From assembly GCA_903873915.1 (NCBI GenBank), contig CAIQQH010000008.1, forward strand, positions 24,844-88,843: a stretch of 64,000 nucleotides of DNA, read 5' to 3'. The translations under genes were made by a program, and so were the position numbers. The notes beneath the pieces were generated by a model. That model made no database searches. It had not been told where the DNA came from and saw nothing but the letters and a program-made list of their open reading frames with translations. This stretch comes from an uncultured Flavobacteriia bacterium (GTDB lineage Bacteria > Bacteroidota > Bacteroidia > Flavobacteriales_D > Crocinitomicaceae). Shown here in pieces: positions 16,439-26,264 of this stretch (positions within the stretch are counted from its first letter, which is position 1; each line of letters opens with the position of its first letter).

Positions 16439-16476
16439 AGGAAATGCATTTGATTTTTCAAGCCAAAACAACCTTT

Positions 16477-19400
16477 TTATTTAAAGGAAAAAGCTGATTT
16501 GACATTGTTTTTCACTTCCAACACTTCCTTTTCGATCCATTCAGGAAAGTCGAGAAGCACTTGATCATTTAAAGGTAGCCATTTCGATGCACTTATTGAA
16601 TAGTCGGGTGCATCACCATAAAGCACATCTGCGCGCATGCTAATCCACTGGTGCCAAGATGTCGGTTGAAAACGAACGAAACGCGTTAATTGAGGTGCGT
16701 CGAAAAGGAATTCTGACAAGCCATCTCGGTCAAAATTGGCAACTATATTTTCTCCGACACAATCCCAGTTTTTACCATCACTCGAAATCAAAAGACCGTA
16801 TGACTTCACCCATTGATCACTATTGTAACTGCCTTGCGTACAAACGCCCCAAATTGTTTTAACTTCACCTAAATCAATTTGAACCCATTGATTTTCATCA
16901 CATTTCTTACTTGACCAATTTGCGTACTTCGGCTCACTGTTCAAACGCGCTAATTTCGCGGAATGATTTTTATTGAACTCACTAGAAGCTGAAAAAGCAT
17001 CATCACTCAACACTCCTCTTCCCCATTGTGCATCAGCGAGCTCAGGTTTATTTCCGTTTTCAGTCAACTCCCAACCCTCGTACTCGGATACAAACCGTTG
17101 AAAATCGTTGGCCAATTCAGGTCCCTTTTTTACACTTACCATTTTCATGATTAAGCCTAGTGAAAGGGCAGTTGGTTCGGTTGCATTTACCCCCCAACCT
17201 ATCCAATGATATCCTTGTTTTTTATTCGAAGCGGCAACATAATCGAGGTAATAAAGTCCTTTTGCATTCTCCCGTTCTACTTTTATGGCGTTAGAAAACG
17301 TATTTTTCAATTCAGAATTTAACACGTTATCCATGACCTCATCCACCCTAGCCTGAATGTTATTGAAGTTATCCAAAACAGGCGATAAACCTAAATAATC
17401 GAGATAATTCCTTGAAGTGACTATTGAAAATTCAGCGATGAAAAGCTGAGCGATTTGCGCCAAATTTGTTTCTATTTCTTCCGAACTGACTGCTTTTCTA
17501 AACACCAGATGTCCTGGACGATGGTTTCGTTCAAAATCGGTATTGGAAAAATGAAATTGTTGGAGGACATCATCAATAGACGAGTGATAGTCATTCGTTC
17601 GTCCAGCACTGCTTAAAGTCAAGTGCAAATAGACCTCATTGGTGATGTAATCCGAAATAAAATCAAAAGAAAGCCGAACAATGTAACCATCCACAGTAGA
17701 AACTATCCTGTAACACATTTTTCCACCTTGAGGGGTACCTGCAATATCTTTCGTTACCTTACCGGATTGTTTAAAATAGCGCTCTACACCTGTTTCAATT
17801 TCCTTGAGACATGAACGAATTGCCTCCTCGTTGTTTGCAAGCGGATCAATGATGTCAATTAAGCTATTTTCATAATCCTGAATAATTTCAGGGATTAGCA
17901 CGTTGAATAAATTGAACGTAATATCGAAGGATTCAACGATTAATTCTGGATTATGAATGGTTTGTTGCACGTCAAAAATGAACTGAATTTGCTCAAATTC
18001 ATAGTCAAAATGAAAGGTCCATGGGTATTTTTCCATCACCTCACTTATTGTCCCGTAACTGGCGTTTCCATTGCTATTCCAAAGCACAAGATTTTTATAT
18101 TTTTTGAACTCTTTTTCATATTTCAACAAGAACTGAAATAGATTTCTTCGGGTGATCGCGAGCAATAAACCGAAGTGTTCAATCGATTTTTGGTCCTTCC
18201 AATCAGGTAAAAAGCCTACTGCCATCGATCCTGAGCCATACAAGGAAAGATGCAATGACAGCGCTGCTTTTGTAACTGCATTTTTCGGAAAAATACTGCA
18301 CCATGCATAGCTTGCCATGTTTCCAATTTGCCATTGATTTTGCTTTGTTCCCCACTCTAAGCCACCTTCTGTTTGAAGTGTTTGAAGTCGCAACTTTACA
18401 AATTGTTCCAAACTGGTAAAGGCGAATTTGTGCCAATATTCTTTCGACCCCGCATTCGATGAATCACCAACAATTTTGTAATTGCTCGTTCCTCCTCCAC
18501 TGTTCAAGCGCTCCATACTCATGATCCAAGTACGTGCAATCGTTAAAGAATGAAAGGCTGATAATTCTTCTTTCGAAAAGGAGACCGTTTCAGATTTTCT
18601 GGCTTCCATAGAATCCACTCCTAGAGCATAAGCCCTTGAATCCACTATTTTATCGAATTCATTTGGATGAACGCCGTATTGTTCTCCCATTAATTTTAGC
18701 ACCAACTCATTGAATGTCTTGTTTCGAATTGCACTATCGATTGCCTCAACAAACCGTGTATCTATCTCAGGAAAAGGATCTTCTATCCCTAGTTCATTAG
18801 CAGTTTCGAGAATAATTTCTTTCACCTGCGCTGAGTTCAATCCCAACTTTGTCCTAGAGACAGACTCCAAAAAACGAAATTCCTCCATACTGATCTGCTT
18901 ATCCTCCAAAGCAACAATGACATGCTCTTTAAATTCAGATAGTGACGTCATTTTTCTCAGTTCCTCTTGCTCCAACTTGATGCGTTCAACAGCCATTGGG
19001 TCGGGTTGAAGCAAGACCTTCCAATCAGCAGGCAATAAATGCTCGTTGGAATTCAATAAAACACGCACACCTTCGGGCAGTTCAAGATTTATATTGATCC
19101 GCTTTAATTGGTCACCATCTTCAATGTTGAGCACAATGACATTCATTTCGTTCTCAGAAACGATGTACTGATCGTAATCCCAGAGTGGATTTAATTGATC
19201 GAGAACGCCCTGTATAGCCAACTCTAATGGCTCCAAAATGAAACGGTAACAATCGTCAGTAAATGGCCAATTGATGGTTTTTCCTTTGACTTCATAAATG
19301 GGATGAGCAATTTTATTTCGAAGTTCCACGAACTTGCTAAAAAACTGATTTAAATTACACTTCTTTAAGCTTACGCCCTTCCTTGCCTGAATACATCTGT

Positions 19401-19788
19401 CATAAAGATTGTCTTTGTCATCAGACTCAACAACCTTCTTCAGGATATCCATGCAGGCGATGAAGTTGGCCAAGACCTCATTTTGTTGCTCTTTGCGAAT
19501 TAAATCATCCAGCAAAGAAGGCTTTTGACTATCCGCGAGGTATTGACTGGTATTTCTGACCCAACCCACATAGGTTCCGACGGAAAGCGACTTTTTGCTG
19601 TTGATGATCTCTTTTTCAAGCGACATAAGATGCGTACCTGTCTCTTTATATTCCGCCAAGACGAAGGAGCACACATGCATGATTAAACTCTCACCTAGAT
19701 GCAAAAGGTAACGCTGACGTGCTTCGTAAAACTTTGCTTTGGCAATGTCATCCAAGGATTTGATGAATGATTGAGGGAGTCTAGACAT
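16477..19788 (-). CDS. Large multidomain protein: N-terminal HEPN-like (RNKIAHP), TerB-like helical segment, central domain of unknown function, C-terminal F5/8 type C (discoidin)-like domain
   Basis: FVELRNKIAHPIYEV; FKEHVIVALEDKQISMEEFRFLESVSRTKLGL; C-term NQWVQIDLGEVKTIWGVCTQGSYNSDQWVKSYGLLISSDGKNWDCVG...TRFVRFQPTSW. No signal peptide if started at MSRLPQSF. ORF track start 19836. Confidence 0.65.
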   Translation of the reverse strand: MSRLPQSFIKSLDDIAKAKFYEARQRYLLHLGESLIMHVCSFVLAEYKETGTHLMSLEKEIINSKKSLSVGTYVGWVRNTSQYLADSQKPSLLDDLIRKEQQNEVLANFIACMDILKKVVESDDKDNLYDRCIQARKGVSLKKCNLNQFFSKFVELRNKIAHPIYEVKGKTINWPFTDDCYRFILEPLELAIQGVLDQLNPLWDYDQYIVSENEMNVIVLNIEDGDQLKRININLELPEGVRVLLNSNEHLLPADWKVLLQPDPMAVERIKLEQEELRKMTSLSEFKEHVIVALEDKQISMEEFRFLESVSRTKLGLNSAQVKEIILETANELGIEDPFPEIDTRFVEAIDSAIRNKTFNELVLKLMGEQYGVHPNEFDKIVDSRAYALGVDSMEARKSETVSFSKEELSAFHSLTIARTWIMSMERLNSGGGTSNYKIVGDSSNAGSKEYWHKFAFTSLEQFVKLRLQTLQTEGGLEWGTKQNQWQIGNMASYAWCSIFPKNAVTKAALSLHLSLYGSGSMAVGFLPDWKDQKSIEHFGLLLAITRRNLFQFLLKYEKEFKKYKNLVLWNSNGNASYGTISEVMEKYPWTFHFDYEFEQIQFIFDVQQTIHNPELIVESFDITFNLFNVLIPEIIQDYENSLIDIIDPLANNEEAIRSCLKEIETGVERYFKQSGKVTKDIAGTPQGGKMCYRIVSTVDGYIVRLSFDFISDYITNEVYLHLTLSSAGRTNDYHSSIDDVLQQFHFSNTDFERNHRPGHLVFRKAVSSEEIETNLAQIAQLFIAEFSIVTSRNYLDYLGLSPVLDNFNNIQARVDEVMDNVLNSELKNTFSNAIKVERENAKGLYYLDYVAASNKKQGYHWIGWGVNATEPTALSLGLIMKMVSVKKGPELANDFQRFVSEYEGWELTENGNKPELADAQWGRGVLSDDAFSASSEFNKNHSAKLARLNSEPKYANWSSKKCDENQWVQIDLGEVKTIWGVCTQGSYNSDQWVKSYGLLISSDGKNWDCVGENIVANFDRDGLSEFLFDAPQLTRFVRFQPTSWHQWISMRADVLYGDAPDYSISASKWLPLNDQVLLDFPEWIEKEVLEVKNNVKSAFSFK

Positions 19789-19842
19789 GTATTGTAAATT
19801 GAAAGGTATTTTGAAAATTCCTTTAAAAATAAGCACATTAAA

Positions 19843-20097
19843 TCAATCTAGCACTTCAGTCACGAACTGCGCACTCACTTCTGTTTTCAGCAAGGCCCAA
19901 ATGGCAAAGCGGCGTAAGAGCTTTTGTCTATCTACTGCTGAGCTGCGGTCATAGAAAGCATCTTCGTACAATCCAATTAAACCTTGAGGAAGTTCTGATA
20001 TATTTTCGGGCTGTTTGCTTCCCTTGAATAAGTCAATCGTAGATGTAACGCAGGTAGGTGAGATCGAGGTGGGGCATGGTTTATTTGTCAATTGCAC
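19843..20097 (-). pseudogene. 84-aa remnant resembling a STAND/NACHT NTPase segment
   Basis: SELPQGLIGLYEDAFYDRSSAVDRQKLLRRFAIWALLKTEVSAQFVTEVL resembles the LPxGLxxLYexlL...R..l..l..epls..eL winged-helix transition of NACHT proteins; no P-loop in the ORF. Confidence 0.35.
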
Positions 20098-20260
20098 ATT
20101 ACTTATTTCAATAATAACTTAGTGGATAGCTAAGTTTTTATCGACGGCAAAATAGCATTAAAACAGGAAGATCATCGACTAATCCACATACAAGATTTCG
20201 GCTCAACCTTTTAGATCATTGGGTAACCACAAAAATACAATCCAATTAAAAAGACAATGA

Positions 20261-20429
20261 CTTTCGTTAATTCCGTCATGAATGTTGGAAATTCCTCTAT
20301 GCCTTTCATTTGTCGTTCTATGCCAGTTCCCACTGAAAGGTGGTGCAAACAACGAAAAAACTTTTCTTCATGATTGCCAAGAATTAAGGTAACTATGTAT
20401 TCCTTTTTCAATTGCACGTAGTGCCTTAC
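20261..20429 (-). pseudogene. Truncated second copy of the metallophosphatase gene (24060-24815)
   Basis: 169-bp stretch matching 24503-24671 with about 8 mismatches by eye; encodes MQLKKEYIVTLILGNHEEKFFRCLHHLSVGTGIERQMKGIEEFPTFMTELTK versus YVQLTKEYIVTLILGNHEEKFFRYLHHVSAGTGIERQMKGIEEFPTFMTELTK; diverges on both sides. Confidence 0.85.
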
Positions 20430-20526
20430 TAATCTCTACATTCAAAATCAAGTAAAATCACAATTTGAATATTTCAGTTTAATCTTTTGTTAGCATTTTA
20501 ACAAAATGATAAATTGAATGTTGTCA

Positions 20527-21396
20527 CTACACATCCCTAGGGTCTTCATTCTTGTTCAATAATAATTTTGATGTTTTAGAAATCACTGTTTTTTTGTCAT
20601 TTCGAAGTGCAAATCCTTGTTTTATTTCATCGGCTGAAACCCATATTATTCGCTCATCATTTGTTGTTTTTAAAATTTGAATCGCTTCTAAATGGATTTT
20701 GTTTGACCAATTCATCTCATAAACATGAAAAACTTTTAATGATTCTTGACCATCTCTATATTGATCTTTATAAATACCCGTATTACAAATCCACTTTTTT
20801 GAATAGTCTATATAATAGAATTGATTTCCATCCAATATTCCTGAAGATACTAATTCTTCATGAAATTCTCTCCATGGATCAGACTCTCTATCTTCATCCA
20901 TATCAAACCAAGACAAAAACTTTCGTAACTTAAATCGATCATAAATAAAAAGTCTAAGGTCATACAAACCATTTTCTACTTTTGTATTTGTATCTCGCTC
21001 AATTGACCAAGTTGCAAACCGATCAGACATTTTTTGCTGGTCATACTTAAAAACACCACCCACTGGTTGATATTGGTTTCGCAGACTATTATAAATTAAT
21101 AAATAGTTTTCATCATGAATTTTAAGTAAATATGAAAATGACAGCCTCAATTTTTGACGTCTCTTATGAGGAAGGTAAGAAACAACAATCGTAATGAAAC
21201 GTTTTCGATTATCAATGAAGAAAATAACAAAATCTAACAACAAAAGTAAACCAGAGGTTATTCCGGTAAACTTCAATTCATTGTCCAAACCATCTAAAAA
21301 AGTCAAATCAAAATTCTTGAACCAAATAAGTCCGAAACATCCAGTTAATGTAACTAACTTTATATAAACACCTACAGATTGTTTAGAATTTTCCAT
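20527..21396 (-). CDS. 2TM protein with SMODS-associated NUDIX-like domain (CBASS Cap16-like effector)
   Basis: Two N-terminal TMs (VYIKLVTLTGCFGLIWF; GITSGLLLLLDFVIFFI), then NYLLIYNSLRNQYQPVGGVFKYD...LRLFIYDRFKLRKFLSWFDMDEDRESDPWREFHEELVSSGIL...IIWVSADEI. Start ATG 21396 preferred over TTG at 21402. Confidence 0.72.
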   Translation of the reverse strand: MENSKQSVGVYIKLVTLTGCFGLIWFKNFDLTFLDGLDNELKFTGITSGLLLLLDFVIFFIDNRKRFITIVVSYLPHKRRQKLRLSFSYLLKIHDENYLLIYNSLRNQYQPVGGVFKYDQQKMSDRFATWSIERDTNTKVENGLYDLRLFIYDRFKLRKFLSWFDMDEDRESDPWREFHEELVSSGILDGNQFYYIDYSKKWICNTGIYKDQYRDGQESLKVFHVYEMNWSNKIHLEAIQILKTTNDERIIWVSADEIKQGFALRNDKKTVISKTSKLLLNKNEDPRDV

Positions 21397-21416
21397 GTTC
21401 AAATTTAATTAATTCC

Positions 21417-21803
21417 ATGTATACAAAAAAAATATGTCGCACTTATGTTCTTTTAGACGAGCAATCAAAAAAAGCAGTTTATTCGCTCATAACAGAATTT
21501 GATTTGGAAGAATGGAAGTTCTATGGTGAACACATGACAGTTGTTTATGGTAGACAATATAATACGTTAAATCTTGATTACCAATTAGGAGATGAAGTAC
21601 AACTTACTGGGACACATTTAGGCAAAAGTGAAAATTGTGTGGCGCTCAAAGTAAATGGGTTTTATTCCTTTAATGAAATTCCCCATGTTACACTTCTCGT
21701 CAATCAAACGAACAATAGTACCCCTGTAATGTCGAATAAAATTAAAAATTGGGACGAGCTAAAAAACCAAATTATTTTAACGGGTAAATTGATTGAATTG
21801 TAG
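21417..21803 (+). CDS. Small putative 2H phosphoesterase-like protein
   Basis: 128 aa with two HxT-type motifs: EHMTVVYG and IPHVTLLVN, followed by STPVMSNKIKNW resembling the post-motif of tRNA-ligase CPDase-like 2H proteins. Confidence 0.55.
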   Translation: MYTKKICRTYVLLDEQSKKAVYSLITEFDLEEWKFYGEHMTVVYGRQYNTLNLDYQLGDEVQLTGTHLGKSENCVALKVNGFYSFNEIPHVTLLVNQTNNSTPVMSNKIKNWDELKNQIILTGKLIEL

Positions 21804-21919
21804 TTGTTTAATTCGTATTCATTATTACTTGAATCACTGTCATTTGTTAATTGAAATCATTGTTGTCCGACTACATCCACCTTCATGTTTTATCTAATCG
21901 CTACTAGTCTGGTTTATGT

Positions 21920-21937
21920 ACCCCATCGGGGTCAAAC
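21920..21937. repeat. Palindromic repeat copy 1 accccatcggggtcaaac
   Basis: 18-bp identical repeat with cccc-atc-gggg core. Confidence 0.8.
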
Positions 21938-21971
21938 CTCTGTAACCATAAGCCCTCCCGAAAGACCAATG

Positions 21972-21989
21972 ACCCCATCGGGGTCAAAC
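21972..21989. repeat. Palindromic repeat copy 2 accccatcggggtcaaac
   Basis: Identical to 21920-21937, 52 bp period; gacccc-atc-ggggtc palindrome. Confidence 0.8.
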
Positions 21990-22133
21990 AGTTTAAATAC
22001 TAAATGACTAAATCACATAAAATAAAAACCACCCCCTTACTTTAAAATCACTTCTTAAAACCAATGATTTCAATGGCTTCAAGAAGTGTAGTTAATTTTT
22101 ATCGGACAACAGTAAATTAAAGTTCTGACCTAA

Positions 22134-24047
22134 TCAAATATCTGTTTTTTTCTTAAGATAATTCAATATTTTCTGTAAAAGGCTCTTTTCATTAAACAAA
22201 GCATCTAGCGAAAGAATCAAAACGAGTGTCACTAAACTCAAGAACACGATTTTAAAGTCATCAACAATTGCAAAATATATCGCGATCACCTGAGCAAAAG
22301 TCAGGAGAATAACAGCATTATCAATTCTCTCGCTGCGCAGTTTTTCCCTGTCCTCTGACTCTAATTTTTCCTTTTTTTCTTTTTTCTCAGCCTCCAAGGA
22401 CGCCAATTTTTCCAAGCCATTGATGCTGTCCAAGTATTCTTCTTTCAATTCTTTGATATTGAATTTTGCTCTTAAATTTTGAAAGAAAGAATCGATTTCA
22501 TTGTAATTACTTATTAGTGTAAACACTTGATAAAATTCACCTTTGATCATCATTGCTTTCATTGATTTTAGCGATTCTGCTTCAAAATCTTCTCCGTTCA
22601 CCTTTAGATCTCCGATTTTTCCTTGAAAATGATGAAATAAGTATTTTTGATTTAGCGCGAACAATACCGCTGGATAATATTTATTAATTAACTCTTTACT
22701 TCGACTTTTTGGGTTTTCGTCGTTCTTGCCTTCTAAAATAAAAGCACCTTCGTTCAAAGTATACATAGAAACGTAAGCATCCGGGGTATCAGGTATAAAT
22801 TCCCAATTATTGATGACTTCATTTTTTAAGTCTGGAATGCGCAAAACATCAAAAATAAGTTGTTTATCCAACTTATTTTCTAATGAATTTTTCTGTTGAA
22901 TTGAAAGATGAAGAAAATGCGGTTTTACATATCCAGCATCATGAGAAAAATTCAAAAATGATTTCGGATCTTTTTGTTTAAAGAGTGTTCGCAAAAGCTC
23001 TTCGATGAGTGTATTAAACCTCAGTCCAAAAATTTCCTTTATAGATTTTGTGGAATTCGTCAAATCATCATGCCCTTCTAATCCCTTATCCGTCCGCAAC
23101 GGTTTGAAATCCAGCTTTAAATTTCCCATTGATTCAACCCTTAATAATTTATCACTTTCGGAAAGTTTAAAATACTTCTCTTCGTCACCGGGATAAAAAG
23201 GACTAGTTGTTAAAAGCTCTGAATTTAATTGAAGTTTGTTTTCGTTCGATCTGTAAAATTCAAATGTACTTCCTTTTAATTGATTCTTAATAGTGACATT
23301 TTTCTTAGAAATCGTGCAGTTGAATGACTCGCACTTATCCTCCATTTCAATGGGCGTATCGACCAAAGAGAAAGCGTATCGTTTCAAATGATCATTAAAC
23401 AAATCATTGGTGCTTAAGTAAAAATTAAAACTCGACTCTTTTTTGTTGGCAAAATATCTTAAATTATTTTTGACTTTTGATAAAGTCTTGAGCATGTCAT
23501 AGGCATTGTCCGCATCCCATTCTAAAACAATAGACGCGAAACCAAAGCCCACCTGAGGATTGAACGCTGAGCGATTGAAAAAAAGTTTAATTGAATCAAT
23601 TTTAAACATATCCGCGACAGCCTCATCGTCAGGTCTATCAAACGAAAACTTAATTTTTCTACTCAATAACCTGCCGGCAATAGACCCAACACTATCCGTC
23701 TTGTCGGGTTGGGTTTTCTGATCTTTCAGAACAAGACTATCCGTAAAATCAATAATATGGTCCAAATACTTTTGATCCCTAAAAGAGCTATCTTTAAAAA
23801 CAACCTTATGGTTATCGTTTATAAAATCAGGTGTTTGCGTAAGGTCAAGTGCATTCGGTTTTGCAATATTTTTTAAAAAAACACACACTAAAGCCCTAGC
23901 TATTTCCGTTGTATCAAATTCCCCATGATGAAGAAAAGCGCTGCTTTTGGACTTCTGGCTCTTCTCAAAATCAAAAAACTCATCTATTGCAAATTTCCCA
24001 TTTGTTTCCTCAAGATTAAAGGGAATCGTCAAAATCGTATAACTCAT
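22134..24047 (-). CDS. 637-aa protein: large cytosolic N-terminal domain, coiled coil and C-terminal two-TM CorA-like anchor
   Basis: C-term LASLEAEKKEKKEKLESEDREKLRSERIDNAVILLTFAQVIAIYFAIVDDFKIVFLSLVTLVLILSLDALF; no recognised N-terminal family; starts 12 bp after phosphatase stop. Confidence 0.6.
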   Translation of the reverse strand: MSYTILTIPFNLEETNGKFAIDEFFDFEKSQKSKSSAFLHHGEFDTTEIARALVCVFLKNIAKPNALDLTQTPDFINDNHKVVFKDSSFRDQKYLDHIIDFTDSLVLKDQKTQPDKTDSVGSIAGRLLSRKIKFSFDRPDDEAVADMFKIDSIKLFFNRSAFNPQVGFGFASIVLEWDADNAYDMLKTLSKVKNNLRYFANKKESSFNFYLSTNDLFNDHLKRYAFSLVDTPIEMEDKCESFNCTISKKNVTIKNQLKGSTFEFYRSNENKLQLNSELLTTSPFYPGDEEKYFKLSESDKLLRVESMGNLKLDFKPLRTDKGLEGHDDLTNSTKSIKEIFGLRFNTLIEELLRTLFKQKDPKSFLNFSHDAGYVKPHFLHLSIQQKNSLENKLDKQLIFDVLRIPDLKNEVINNWEFIPDTPDAYVSMYTLNEGAFILEGKNDENPKSRSKELINKYYPAVLFALNQKYLFHHFQGKIGDLKVNGEDFEAESLKSMKAMMIKGEFYQVFTLISNYNEIDSFFQNLRAKFNIKELKEEYLDSINGLEKLASLEAEKKEKKEKLESEDREKLRSERIDNAVILLTFAQVIAIYFAIVDDFKIVFLSLVTLVLILSLDALFNEKSLLQKILNYLKKKTDI

Positions 24048-24059
24048 AAATCTTTGTAT

Positions 24060-24815
24060 TTAATGCACAGAGGCATATGTTTTCAATGCTTTGATGCTGC
24101 AAAAAGAGTCTTTTCCATTTTCCAAAACGACTGCTGTTAACCATCCACCGAAAACACAGCCTGTATCGAGTCCTGTGGCAAATGGGAATCTTTTCGGCTC
24201 TGGCTGTATAAACGGTTGGTGACCAAAATACACATGTCCAAATTTTCCAGTGTAGCGCTCTGCCCAATAGGTGTCCTCGGGGCCCTCCTCTCCTAGCCCA
24301 ACAAATTTATCATTGGGGTTCAAAAACCTGATTTTGGTGATCAATTCCAATCCTTTAAATTGTTTGGCCGCTTTTTCATTGTACGGATAATTTTCTGGGA
24401 AAGGAAATTTAACCACATTTGAAATTCCACCATGCAAAAGTACAATCCCCAAATTTTCAACCTTGAACGTATAAAAGGCTTCCTTTAATTTATCAATTTC
24501 CTCTTTCGTTAATTCCGTCATGAATGTTGGAAATTCCTCTATGCCTTTCATTTGTCGTTCTATGCCAGTTCCCGCTGAAACGTGGTGCAGATAACGAAAA
24601 AACTTTTCTTCATGATTGCCAAGAATTAAGGTAACGATGTATTCCTTTGTCAATTGCACGTATCGCCTTACAACATCAACGGAATGAGGTCCCTTGTCAA
24701 TGAGATCTCCAATAAAACAAATGTGATCATCAGATCGAAGAATGAGCTTTTCGAGTAACAAATCGAGTTCCTCAATGCATCCATGCACATCACCAATAAT
24801 GATTACTCTCCCCAT
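24060..24815 (-). CDS. Calcineurin-like/PrpA-ApaH type metallophosphatase
   Basis: IIGDVHGCIEELDLLLEKL, CFIGDLIDKGPHSVDVVRR, LILGNHEEKF, VLLHGGIS motifs. Confidence 0.92.
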   Translation of the reverse strand: MGRVIIIGDVHGCIEELDLLLEKLILRSDDHICFIGDLIDKGPHSVDVVRRYVQLTKEYIVTLILGNHEEKFFRYLHHVSAGTGIERQMKGIEEFPTFMTELTKEEIDKLKEAFYTFKVENLGIVLLHGGISNVVKFPFPENYPYNEKAAKQFKGLELITKIRFLNPNDKFVGLGEEGPEDTYWAERYTGKFGHVYFGHQPFIQPEPKRFPFATGLDTGCVFGGWLTAVVLENGKDSFCSIKALKTYASVH

Positions 24816-24940
24816 GCTTCTTCAGAAATTTTAAGAGTCTTTAAGTACTTGAAATTAAAGCGTAAATAGTTGTAAATATAAATCTTCATGAGCATATATT
24901 TATTTCCTATGATTACATTTATCCAACTAAACTGAACAGT

Positions 24941-25990
24941 ATGATGTTTTTATGGAATGTTTTGGCGTGGTTGGGAATAATCTTTTTAATTGTCATCGCA
25001 CTGGCTACAATTGGAATTGTGCTAAACAAACAGTCGAAAAGTAAAAAAGCCAATTTAAATGGAATAGAATCAGATGATCAAGACAATCCAAATAATCAGC
25101 TAAATTTAGATACGAATCGCTTTAATCAAGAAATCCTAGACGAAGCCCTTTCAAAATTGAATGCTCTAGAAGGACTTGTTATTCTCAAAAATGAAGTGAA
25201 TGAATTGGTCAAATTGGTCAAATACGAAATGGAAGAAGGTGAATTTGACCATAAAACCAATGCATTTCACATGGTTTTTCTAGGAAACCCCGGTACTGGA
25301 AAAACCACTGTTGCTCGTTTACTAGCAGACATATTGAAAGGGCTTGGCCTACTAGGTAGTGGTCATCTTGTAGAAGTTGACCGCACTGCGCTCGTTGCGG
25401 GTTATATTGGACAAACCGCAGATAAAACAAAAAGTAAAGTGAATGAGGCAATGGGAGGCGTCCTATTTATTGATGAAGCGTATTCATTGGCAGGAAGAGG
25501 ATCTCAAGATTTTGGAAATGAAGCTATTGAAGCCTTACTCACCGAAATGGAAAATCAACGCGGAAAATTTATTGTCATCGTCGCGGGATATGAAAAACCA
25601 ATGCAACAATTTTTAAAATCCAATATTGGTTTAAAATCGCGCTTTGATAAGTTTTTCACCTTTGAAGATTACAACGCCAAAGAACTTTGGACTATTTTCA
25701 ACAATCTAATCGATCAAAACAAGAAAGAACTCGCGCCAAAAGCGAAAGACATCCTTGAATCTTATATTAAAAACATTTCTGAAAATAGATATGAAGGATT
25801 TGGTAATGCGCGTGAAATCCGAAAGGTCATCGCTGAAACCTTGAAAAATCAGAAACTGCGACTTGCTGATGTGGAAAAATCAGAACGTTCCGAAGACATG
25901 AAACGTCTCATTATTGAGAAAGATGTTGAGGAATTTAAAGACTTTGAAAAGAAATATAAGCCAATGTTGGGTTACGTTCAAGTTGATTGA
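24941..25990 (+). CDS. N-terminally membrane-anchored CbbX/SpoVK-like AAA+ ATPase
   Basis: N-terminal TM; LEGLVILKNEVNELV, FLGNPGTGKTTVARLLADIL, GGVLFIDEAYSL, SRFDKFFTFEDY, GFGNAREIRKV. Confidence 0.9.
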   Translation: MMFLWNVLAWLGIIFLIVIALATIGIVLNKQSKSKKANLNGIESDDQDNPNNQLNLDTNRFNQEILDEALSKLNALEGLVILKNEVNELVKLVKYEMEEGEFDHKTNAFHMVFLGNPGTGKTTVARLLADILKGLGLLGSGHLVEVDRTALVAGYIGQTADKTKSKVNEAMGGVLFIDEAYSLAGRGSQDFGNEAIEALLTEMENQRGKFIVIVAGYEKPMQQFLKSNIGLKSRFDKFFTFEDYNAKELWTIFNNLIDQNKKELAPKAKDILESYIKNISENRYEGFGNAREIRKVIAETLKNQKLRLADVEKSERSEDMKRLIIEKDVEEFKDFEKKYKPMLGYVQVD

Positions 25991-26101
25991 TCGAATTTGA
26001 CAAACATTAGCTTTGGTAGACTATTGAATCTAGGGAAATTATACTATTCTTCTCTGAGTCTTTGCAGTAAAAAGGGTTGAGCATTGCACCGTTTAAGTCA
26101 T

Positions 26102-26125
26102 TTAACCTCAGAGCCACAGAGGACA
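26102..26125 (+). repeat. 24-bp degenerate repeat copy (ttaacctcagagccacagaggaca)
   Basis: 20/24 identity to 26236-26259 by eye. Confidence 0.45.
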
Positions 26126-26235
26126 AAAAACTTATTCGTTCCTATTATTGTCGGGTAGAATATTGAATGAAGGGGGTTTATTCTTTACCATTCTGCTGCT
26201 CTGCTGCAAAAAAAGAGGGGTGCCAATTTCAACAA

Positions 26236-26259
26236 TTAACCACAGATCCACGAAGGACA
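26236..26259 (+). repeat. 24-bp degenerate repeat copy (ttaaccacagatccacgaaggaca)
   Basis: 20/24 identity to 26102-26125 by eye. Confidence 0.45.
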
Positions 26260-26264
26260 TGGTG

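Follow-up and report, generated by a model that had tools for sequence, protein, structure and literature searches.

The 64,000-nucleotide stretch of flavobacterial DNA analyzed here (the window) carries a minus-strand gene whose product joins an N-terminal HEPN-like domain, a TerB-like segment, and a C-terminal discoidin domain in a single chain, an architecture that defines an apparently undescribed protein family. We read the gene product as a cytosolic sensor-effector, in which a diversifying, discoidin-ended part would sense a ligand and control a HEPN RNase, probably in defense against phages or in a similar conflict, a reading to which we give about an even chance of being right. The gene and its parts are arranged as follows.

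16477–19788, minus strand: HEPN/TerB-like/discoidin protein gene, an intact open reading frame of 1,103 amino acids with an ATG start conserved in relatives
19174–19788, minus strand: N-terminal HEPN-like helical domain (residues 1–205), from a sub-threshold PF18735 match, the RNxxAHP motif, and a model
19300–19320, minus strand: RNKIAHP (residues 157–163), predicted RNase active site (Rx4H), with invariant positions
18754–18993, minus strand: TerB-like helical segment (residues 266–345), where the family profile matches a TerB protein
17854–18468, minus strand: conserved unassigned α/β domain (residues 441–645), with NxWQxG ... LPDWKD motifs
17014–17853, minus strand: fast-evolving α/β region (residues 646–925), 18–33% identical to the relative G215
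16627–16995, minus strand: F5/8 type C (discoidin) domain (residues 932–1054), PF00754 at 1.4e-25

Open reading frame analysis of the window places an ATG at position 19788 and a stop codon ending at 16477. The mechanical reading frame begins at a GTG at 19836, 16 residues upstream; relatives begin at the same ATG, which we therefore take as the start, and the protein of about 1,100 residues that an earlier, sequence-only reading had placed at 16477–19788 is exact in its coordinates. The domain order given there (HEPN-like, TerB-like, unassigned middle, discoidin) is supported as well and is common to the whole family. A Pfam scan of the complete protein returned one strong domain, PF00754, and a sub-threshold HEPN_RiboL-PSP match, and PADLOC gave no convincing model match for it, only RTasHEPN at E = 0.015. 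A full-length structure model computed from five sequences had a mean pLDDT of 51; its Foldseek output was noise, apart from which the middle region gave a weak match to DR_1245. Structure prediction thus yielded two models of low to moderate confidence, this one and that of the N-terminus, and Foldseek found no significant fold match for them, which leaves both the HEPN and the discoidin fold without structural confirmation here. PDB searches with the N-terminal and middle-domain profiles likewise gave no convincing known-structure match outside the discoidin domain.

Sequence and modeling together give good grounds for predicting that the N-terminal domain is a HEPN domain. Other HEPN RNases have an Rx4H motif and act independently of metal. 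In 13 aligned N-termini, 22–97% identical, the motif RN[KRI]xAHP is present in every sequence, conforming to Rx4-6H with a polar residue after the arginine. Arg157, Asn158, Ala161, His162, and Pro163 are invariant down to 22% identity with the window protein, as are Glu33, Glu46, Tyr47, Glu58, and Arg78, and RNxxAHP arises only 3 times in 20,000 residue shuffles of the 1,103-residue protein. In the N-terminal model (mean pLDDT 67, with 74–93 over residues 91–200), the motif ends a helix that is followed by a short hairpin and then a long helix; in HEPN proteins, the motif closes helix 3 and precedes helix 4 (PMC3710099). PF18735 matches six of the 13 N-termini when these are scanned alone, with a best E-value of 0.0017 and a best score of 18.7 bits against a curated cut-off of 28.4, and it is the sole family matched by several members (HEPN_Swt1 reached 0.12 in one). 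Foldseek with the N-terminal model retrieved nothing at E ≤ 0.001, a PDB search with the N-terminal profile gave no match, and comparing profiles with four HEPN-type proteins from related genomes told us nothing, since each is a single sequence. Of the HEPN assignment proposed earlier, the conservation of R and H in RNKIAHP stood up fully, whereas the profile match stayed below threshold and the model found no significant structural match.

Residues ~271–340 are TerB-like, a prediction from sequence comparison that is moderately supported. The family profile matches short proteins in two genomes (G266 and G280, E = 3.8e-4) at positions ~267–340, and the short protein of G280 is itself a Pfam TerB protein (2.7e-7). 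Pfam TerB (PF05099) did not match the window protein or its segment alone and matched directly in only one of nine members (E = 0.013), so the TerB-like segment of the earlier reading is borne out through the family profile but not by a curated-level Pfam match. The conserved middle domain, residues 441–645, is 96% identical to G008 and 33–61% identical to other relatives and looks α/β in the low-confidence full-length model. It has no Pfam match, and a PDB search with its profile gave a marginal hit only (SLX4, E = 0.66). Profile comparison revealed no internal repeats in the middle region.

These features could also belong to an inactive or non-defense protein, with a structural HEPN-like domain, a TerB-type role in stress or the envelope, and a discoidin domain directed at polysaccharide or lipid of the cell itself. 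Such a protein would suit the weak HEPN profile scores, the TerB-like segment, and the ordinary chromosomal context of several relatives. Against it, the R, N, and H of the motif are the same in every sequence aligned, whereas the motif has been lost in some HEPN families (PMC3710099), and the distribution of the family is patchy and island-borne. We consider this explanation unlikely.

The C-terminal discoidin domain is strongly supported by sequence. The F5/8 type C fold named in the earlier reading is matched by PF00754 at E = 1.4e-25, with 90.3 bits against a curated cut-off of 28.2, and the PDB match of the C-terminal domain to neuropilin-1 reaches 2.9e-24, with factor V/VIII weaker. The domain is found in every one of the 13 family sequences whose C-terminus is intact, the window protein among them. 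Discoidin domains usually work outside cells, which would fit a secreted or injected toxin that uses the domain for targeting, and a related genome does encode an unrelated discoidin protein of exported type that carries Ig_7 together with a T9SS sorting tail (L038). The 1,103-residue protein, in contrast, has no evident signal peptide or transmembrane segment (highest 19-residue Kyte–Doolittle mean 1.46, in agreement with the earlier call that a signal peptide is absent) and no T9SS sorting tail. Its enzyme-like domain is N-terminal, and no recurrent small immunity-like gene adjoins the HEPN-discoidin gene. With export features wholly absent, we rejected a secreted toxin as highly improbable.

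The two halves of the protein evolve differently. Identity to G215 is 42–61% in every segment of residues 1–645 and is 18% for residues 646–800, 33% for 801–925, and 47% for the discoidin domain. Nonsynonymous divergence (dN) between the window and G008 is 0.035 for residues 1–645 versus 0.201 for 646–1058; the corresponding values are 0.131 versus 0.382 for the window and G1132, which is incomplete, and 0.167 versus 0.501 for G268 and G186. The C-terminal part thus diverges ~3–6 times faster than residues 1–645 in three of four pairs, the exception being G268–G288, because there the N-terminal part is the divergent one. Fourfold-degenerate sites of the window and G008 differ at 13 of 80 positions in codons 1–250 and at 61 of 85 past codon 720, in a locus whose flanking genes have a dS of 0.33–1.07; G268 and G288 show the reverse pattern (30 of 72 and 22 of 141, respectively). 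For both pairs, the observed clustering of sites was reached by none of 5,000 site-order permutations. Synonymous divergence is therefore patchy along the gene, which makes the alleles mosaics. The dN/dS ratio is below 0.3 where computable, except in a short tail (0.39–0.44), pointing to recombination and weaker constraint, with no sign of positive selection. That the discoidin half evolves faster and as a mosaic would suit a sensor, such as the phage-ligand sensor suggested in the earlier reading, although it does not name the ligand.

Relatives of the same length and domain order occur in ten genomes (G008, G215, G245, G268, G288, G186, G195, G344, G1135, and G1085), with overall identity to the window protein of 84% for G008 and 46% for G215. 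Partial copies are present in G011, G1132, and G1126, and G1085 has a second, partial copy. Two further relatives are shorter, with the shared N-terminus and no discoidin match: an 830-residue protein in G138 (L037), adjoining NACHT- and TPR-type genes, and a protein in G996 (L065), from another family of the class, adjoining a TerB-like gene. Of 240 genomes from its taxonomic family, 12 showed a member of the HEPN-discoidin family, a count that leaves aside two further weak matches, which are TerB proteins. A class-wide sample of 395 genomes added one other genome with a distant relative, G996; the phylum sample gave discoidin-only matches and no full relative, and plasmid, phage, and viral collections contained no relatives. 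Those in public records are from Bacteroidota.

In the window, the gene lies at a patchily occupied island site, next to a gene for a defense-type effector.

16439–26264, no strand: variable insert of 9.8 kb carrying the gene, between the ruvC/K+-channel-like genes and a DUF4296-like lipoprotein gene
20527–21402, minus strand: Sa_NUDIX 2TM protein (CBASS/DRT-type effector), PF18167 at 9.9e-43 and PADLOC 2TM effector at 3.5e-45

In all nine genomes of the same genus that were examined, the ruvC (or K+-channel-like) gene and the DUF4296-like gene are immediate neighbors or are separated by no more than one or two small genes. At the same site, G008 (L001) carries a different insert of ~10 kb that shares only the HEPN-discoidin gene with that of the window. 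The window insert also contains a phosphatase gene, a gene for a 637-residue protein, and an AAA ATPase gene, and no CD-NTase was found among its larger genes scanned. Part of the phosphatase gene is duplicated (positions 20261–20429 and 24503–24671; 169 bp, 95% identical), a sign of island rearrangement. A plus-strand open reading frame of 128 residues (21417–21803) has two H-x-T-like motifs (HMTVVY and HVTLLV) and resembles 2H phosphoesterases, with no Pfam match; 2H phosphoesterases act on 2′,3′-cyclic phosphate ends, the type left by HEPN RNases. The 637-residue protein (22134–24047, minus strand) has a charged helical stretch and apparent C-terminal transmembrane helices and matched nothing in Pfam, NCBIfam, or PADLOC.

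Elsewhere, the neighbors of the gene differ between loci; some are candidate partners, none of them universal. In G245, the HEPN-discoidin gene ends a tight run (L031:7507–10144) of a SIR2 gene (PF13289 1.6e-24; PADLOC ThsA 7.7e-33), a gene for a 445-residue CorA-like protein (PADLOC 4.3e-9), and a gene for a 159-residue protein; homologues of the latter two recur in G1135 (L062). In G1135 and G1126, the relatives have a HEC-05 (DUF262-type) defense candidate nearby (L062:13307–15088 and L067:3384–5042). The earlier placement of the gene next to defense-like genes thus holds in part: Sa_NUDIX in the window, the SIR2/CorA-like run, and HEC-05 are defense-type settings, whereas some relatives have ordinary chromosomal genes around them (L036 and L064). 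Five loci encode a DUF481-type outer-membrane protein close to the gene (L031:2942–3748, L032:2728–3555, L034:2803–3633, L062:6956–7756, and L012:1–351), and in G215 a DNA/RNA non-specific endonuclease gene (L012:390–1238; PF01223 2.4e-60) lies 21 bp downstream on the same strand.

The HEPN-discoidin gene is adjoined, in divergent orientation, by a gene for a large, probably membrane-spanning protein in four genomes belonging to a single genus; in another genus (G1085), such a gene lies 35 bp upstream of it on the same strand. These proteins of 1,335–1,421 residues (L032:3521–7786, L034:3602–7726, L035:4186–8352, and L063:10465–14472) are possibly circularly permuted DHH enzymes: their DHH and PDxDA motifs, of DHH-phosphoesterase type, are swapped, with IIDHHQP before THFxPDLDA, and Pfam DHH reaches only E = 0.05. 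The hydrophobic C-terminus probably spans the membrane. The permuted-DHH-like protein occurs in seven of the 240 genomes, six of which carry the HEPN-discoidin gene (hypergeometric 2.5e-8, kinship ignored). The family could therefore be part of a multi-gene conflict system, in which the HEPN protein serves as RNase effector, sensing or signaling falls to a partner (the permuted-DHH-like protein or the SIR2/CorA-like set), and the discoidin domain only docks the protein to the membrane or a partner. This co-occurrence, with adjacency in two genera, speaks for such a system, as do the SIR2/CorA-like/159-residue run of G245 and its partial recurrence in G1135; factor V/VIII discoidin C domains, moreover, bind membranes. 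On the other hand, the gene has neither a permuted-DHH-like nor a SIR2/CorA-like partner close by in the window and in G008, partners vary by locus, no permuted-DHH gene was found in G000, G008, or G011, and counted by genus the co-occurrence is confined to two genera (p about 0.01). A multi-gene system is, in our judgment, a rather doubtful alternative, with roughly one chance in a few of being correct.

For the preferred sensor-effector, we infer RNase activity, ligand binding, relay, and an anti-phage role. The C-terminal part, comprising the two α/β segments and the discoidin domain, would bind a ligand that arises or becomes accessible in the course of an attack, most likely one of phage origin or a component of the envelope or glycans that has been damaged. 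The TerB-like and conserved middle domains would pass the binding signal on to the HEPN domain at the N-terminus; this domain would then cut RNA through its metal-independent Rx4H site and halt growth of the infected cell. We favor this reading because the discoidin domain is present in all intact members, the HEPN motif is invariant, and export features are lacking; because the family is patchy, occupies a variable insert, and has Sa_NUDIX, SIR2/CorA-like, and HEC-05 neighbors; and because a conserved N-terminal part is joined to a diverging, mosaic C-terminal part, in line with the lectin-fold sensor proposal of PMC8195603. Against it weigh the sub-threshold HEPN score, the lack of a fold match or PADLOC model, the ordinary-gene settings of several relatives, and the absence of any sign of positive selection, or of relatives in the phage, plasmid, and viral collections searched. 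A more specific version is tentative and, we think, rather less probable than its general form: an undescribed single-protein Bacteroidota immune receptor, with a recombination-shuffled, discoidin-ended sensor and a HEPN RNase but no NTPase switch, that would recognize phage structural components or glycans directly and shut the cell down by RNA cleavage.

Several known systems share parts of this architecture. Like HEPN superfamily RNases, the family has Rx4H, a polar Asn after the Arg, and, in the N-terminal model, a motif placed at a helix end with a long helix after it (PMC3710099); the nearest Pfam model is HEPN_RiboL-PSP (PF18735), whose curated cut-off the family score does not reach. 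The terms TerB, discoidin, lectin, and carbohydrate are absent from the text of that HEPN survey (PMC3710099), and searches of the open-access literature, which mostly leaves out subscription papers, turned up no description of a discoidin domain combined with HEPN or an anti-phage role. Residues ~271–340 match TerB proteins (PF05099) through the family profile, although here TerB is a short segment inside a long protein, with a direct Pfam match in one of nine members. The C-terminal domain is clearly homologous in sequence to those of neuropilin, factor V/VIII, and T9SS-secreted Bacteroidota proteins; the family differs from these extracellular proteins in having an RNase-like N-terminus and no export signal. 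The closest parallel is with conflict systems in which NPCBM, a discoidin-like fold, and FGS domains were proposed as intracellular invader sensors (PMC8195603). Both join an intracellular discoidin-like or lectin-fold domain to a conflict effector. The NPCBM domain (PF08305) occurs there with TIR, kinase, bDLD3, and STAND/AP-ATPase partners, whereas here PF00754 shares a chain, free of a STAND NTPase, with HEPN-like and TerB-like parts. No NPCBM/FGS, EAD, or STAND domain was found in the chain or the neighboring genes scanned; given its PF00754 domain and HEPN-like effector, we place the family outside the NPCBM/FGS systems. If the sensor-effector reading is true, the family would offer a simple, testable case in which a ligand is recognized directly, with no STAND or ternary switch involved. 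Earlier lectin-fold sensor proposals rest on NPCBM and FGS; this family fuses a classical discoidin domain and an RNase-like effector in one chain.
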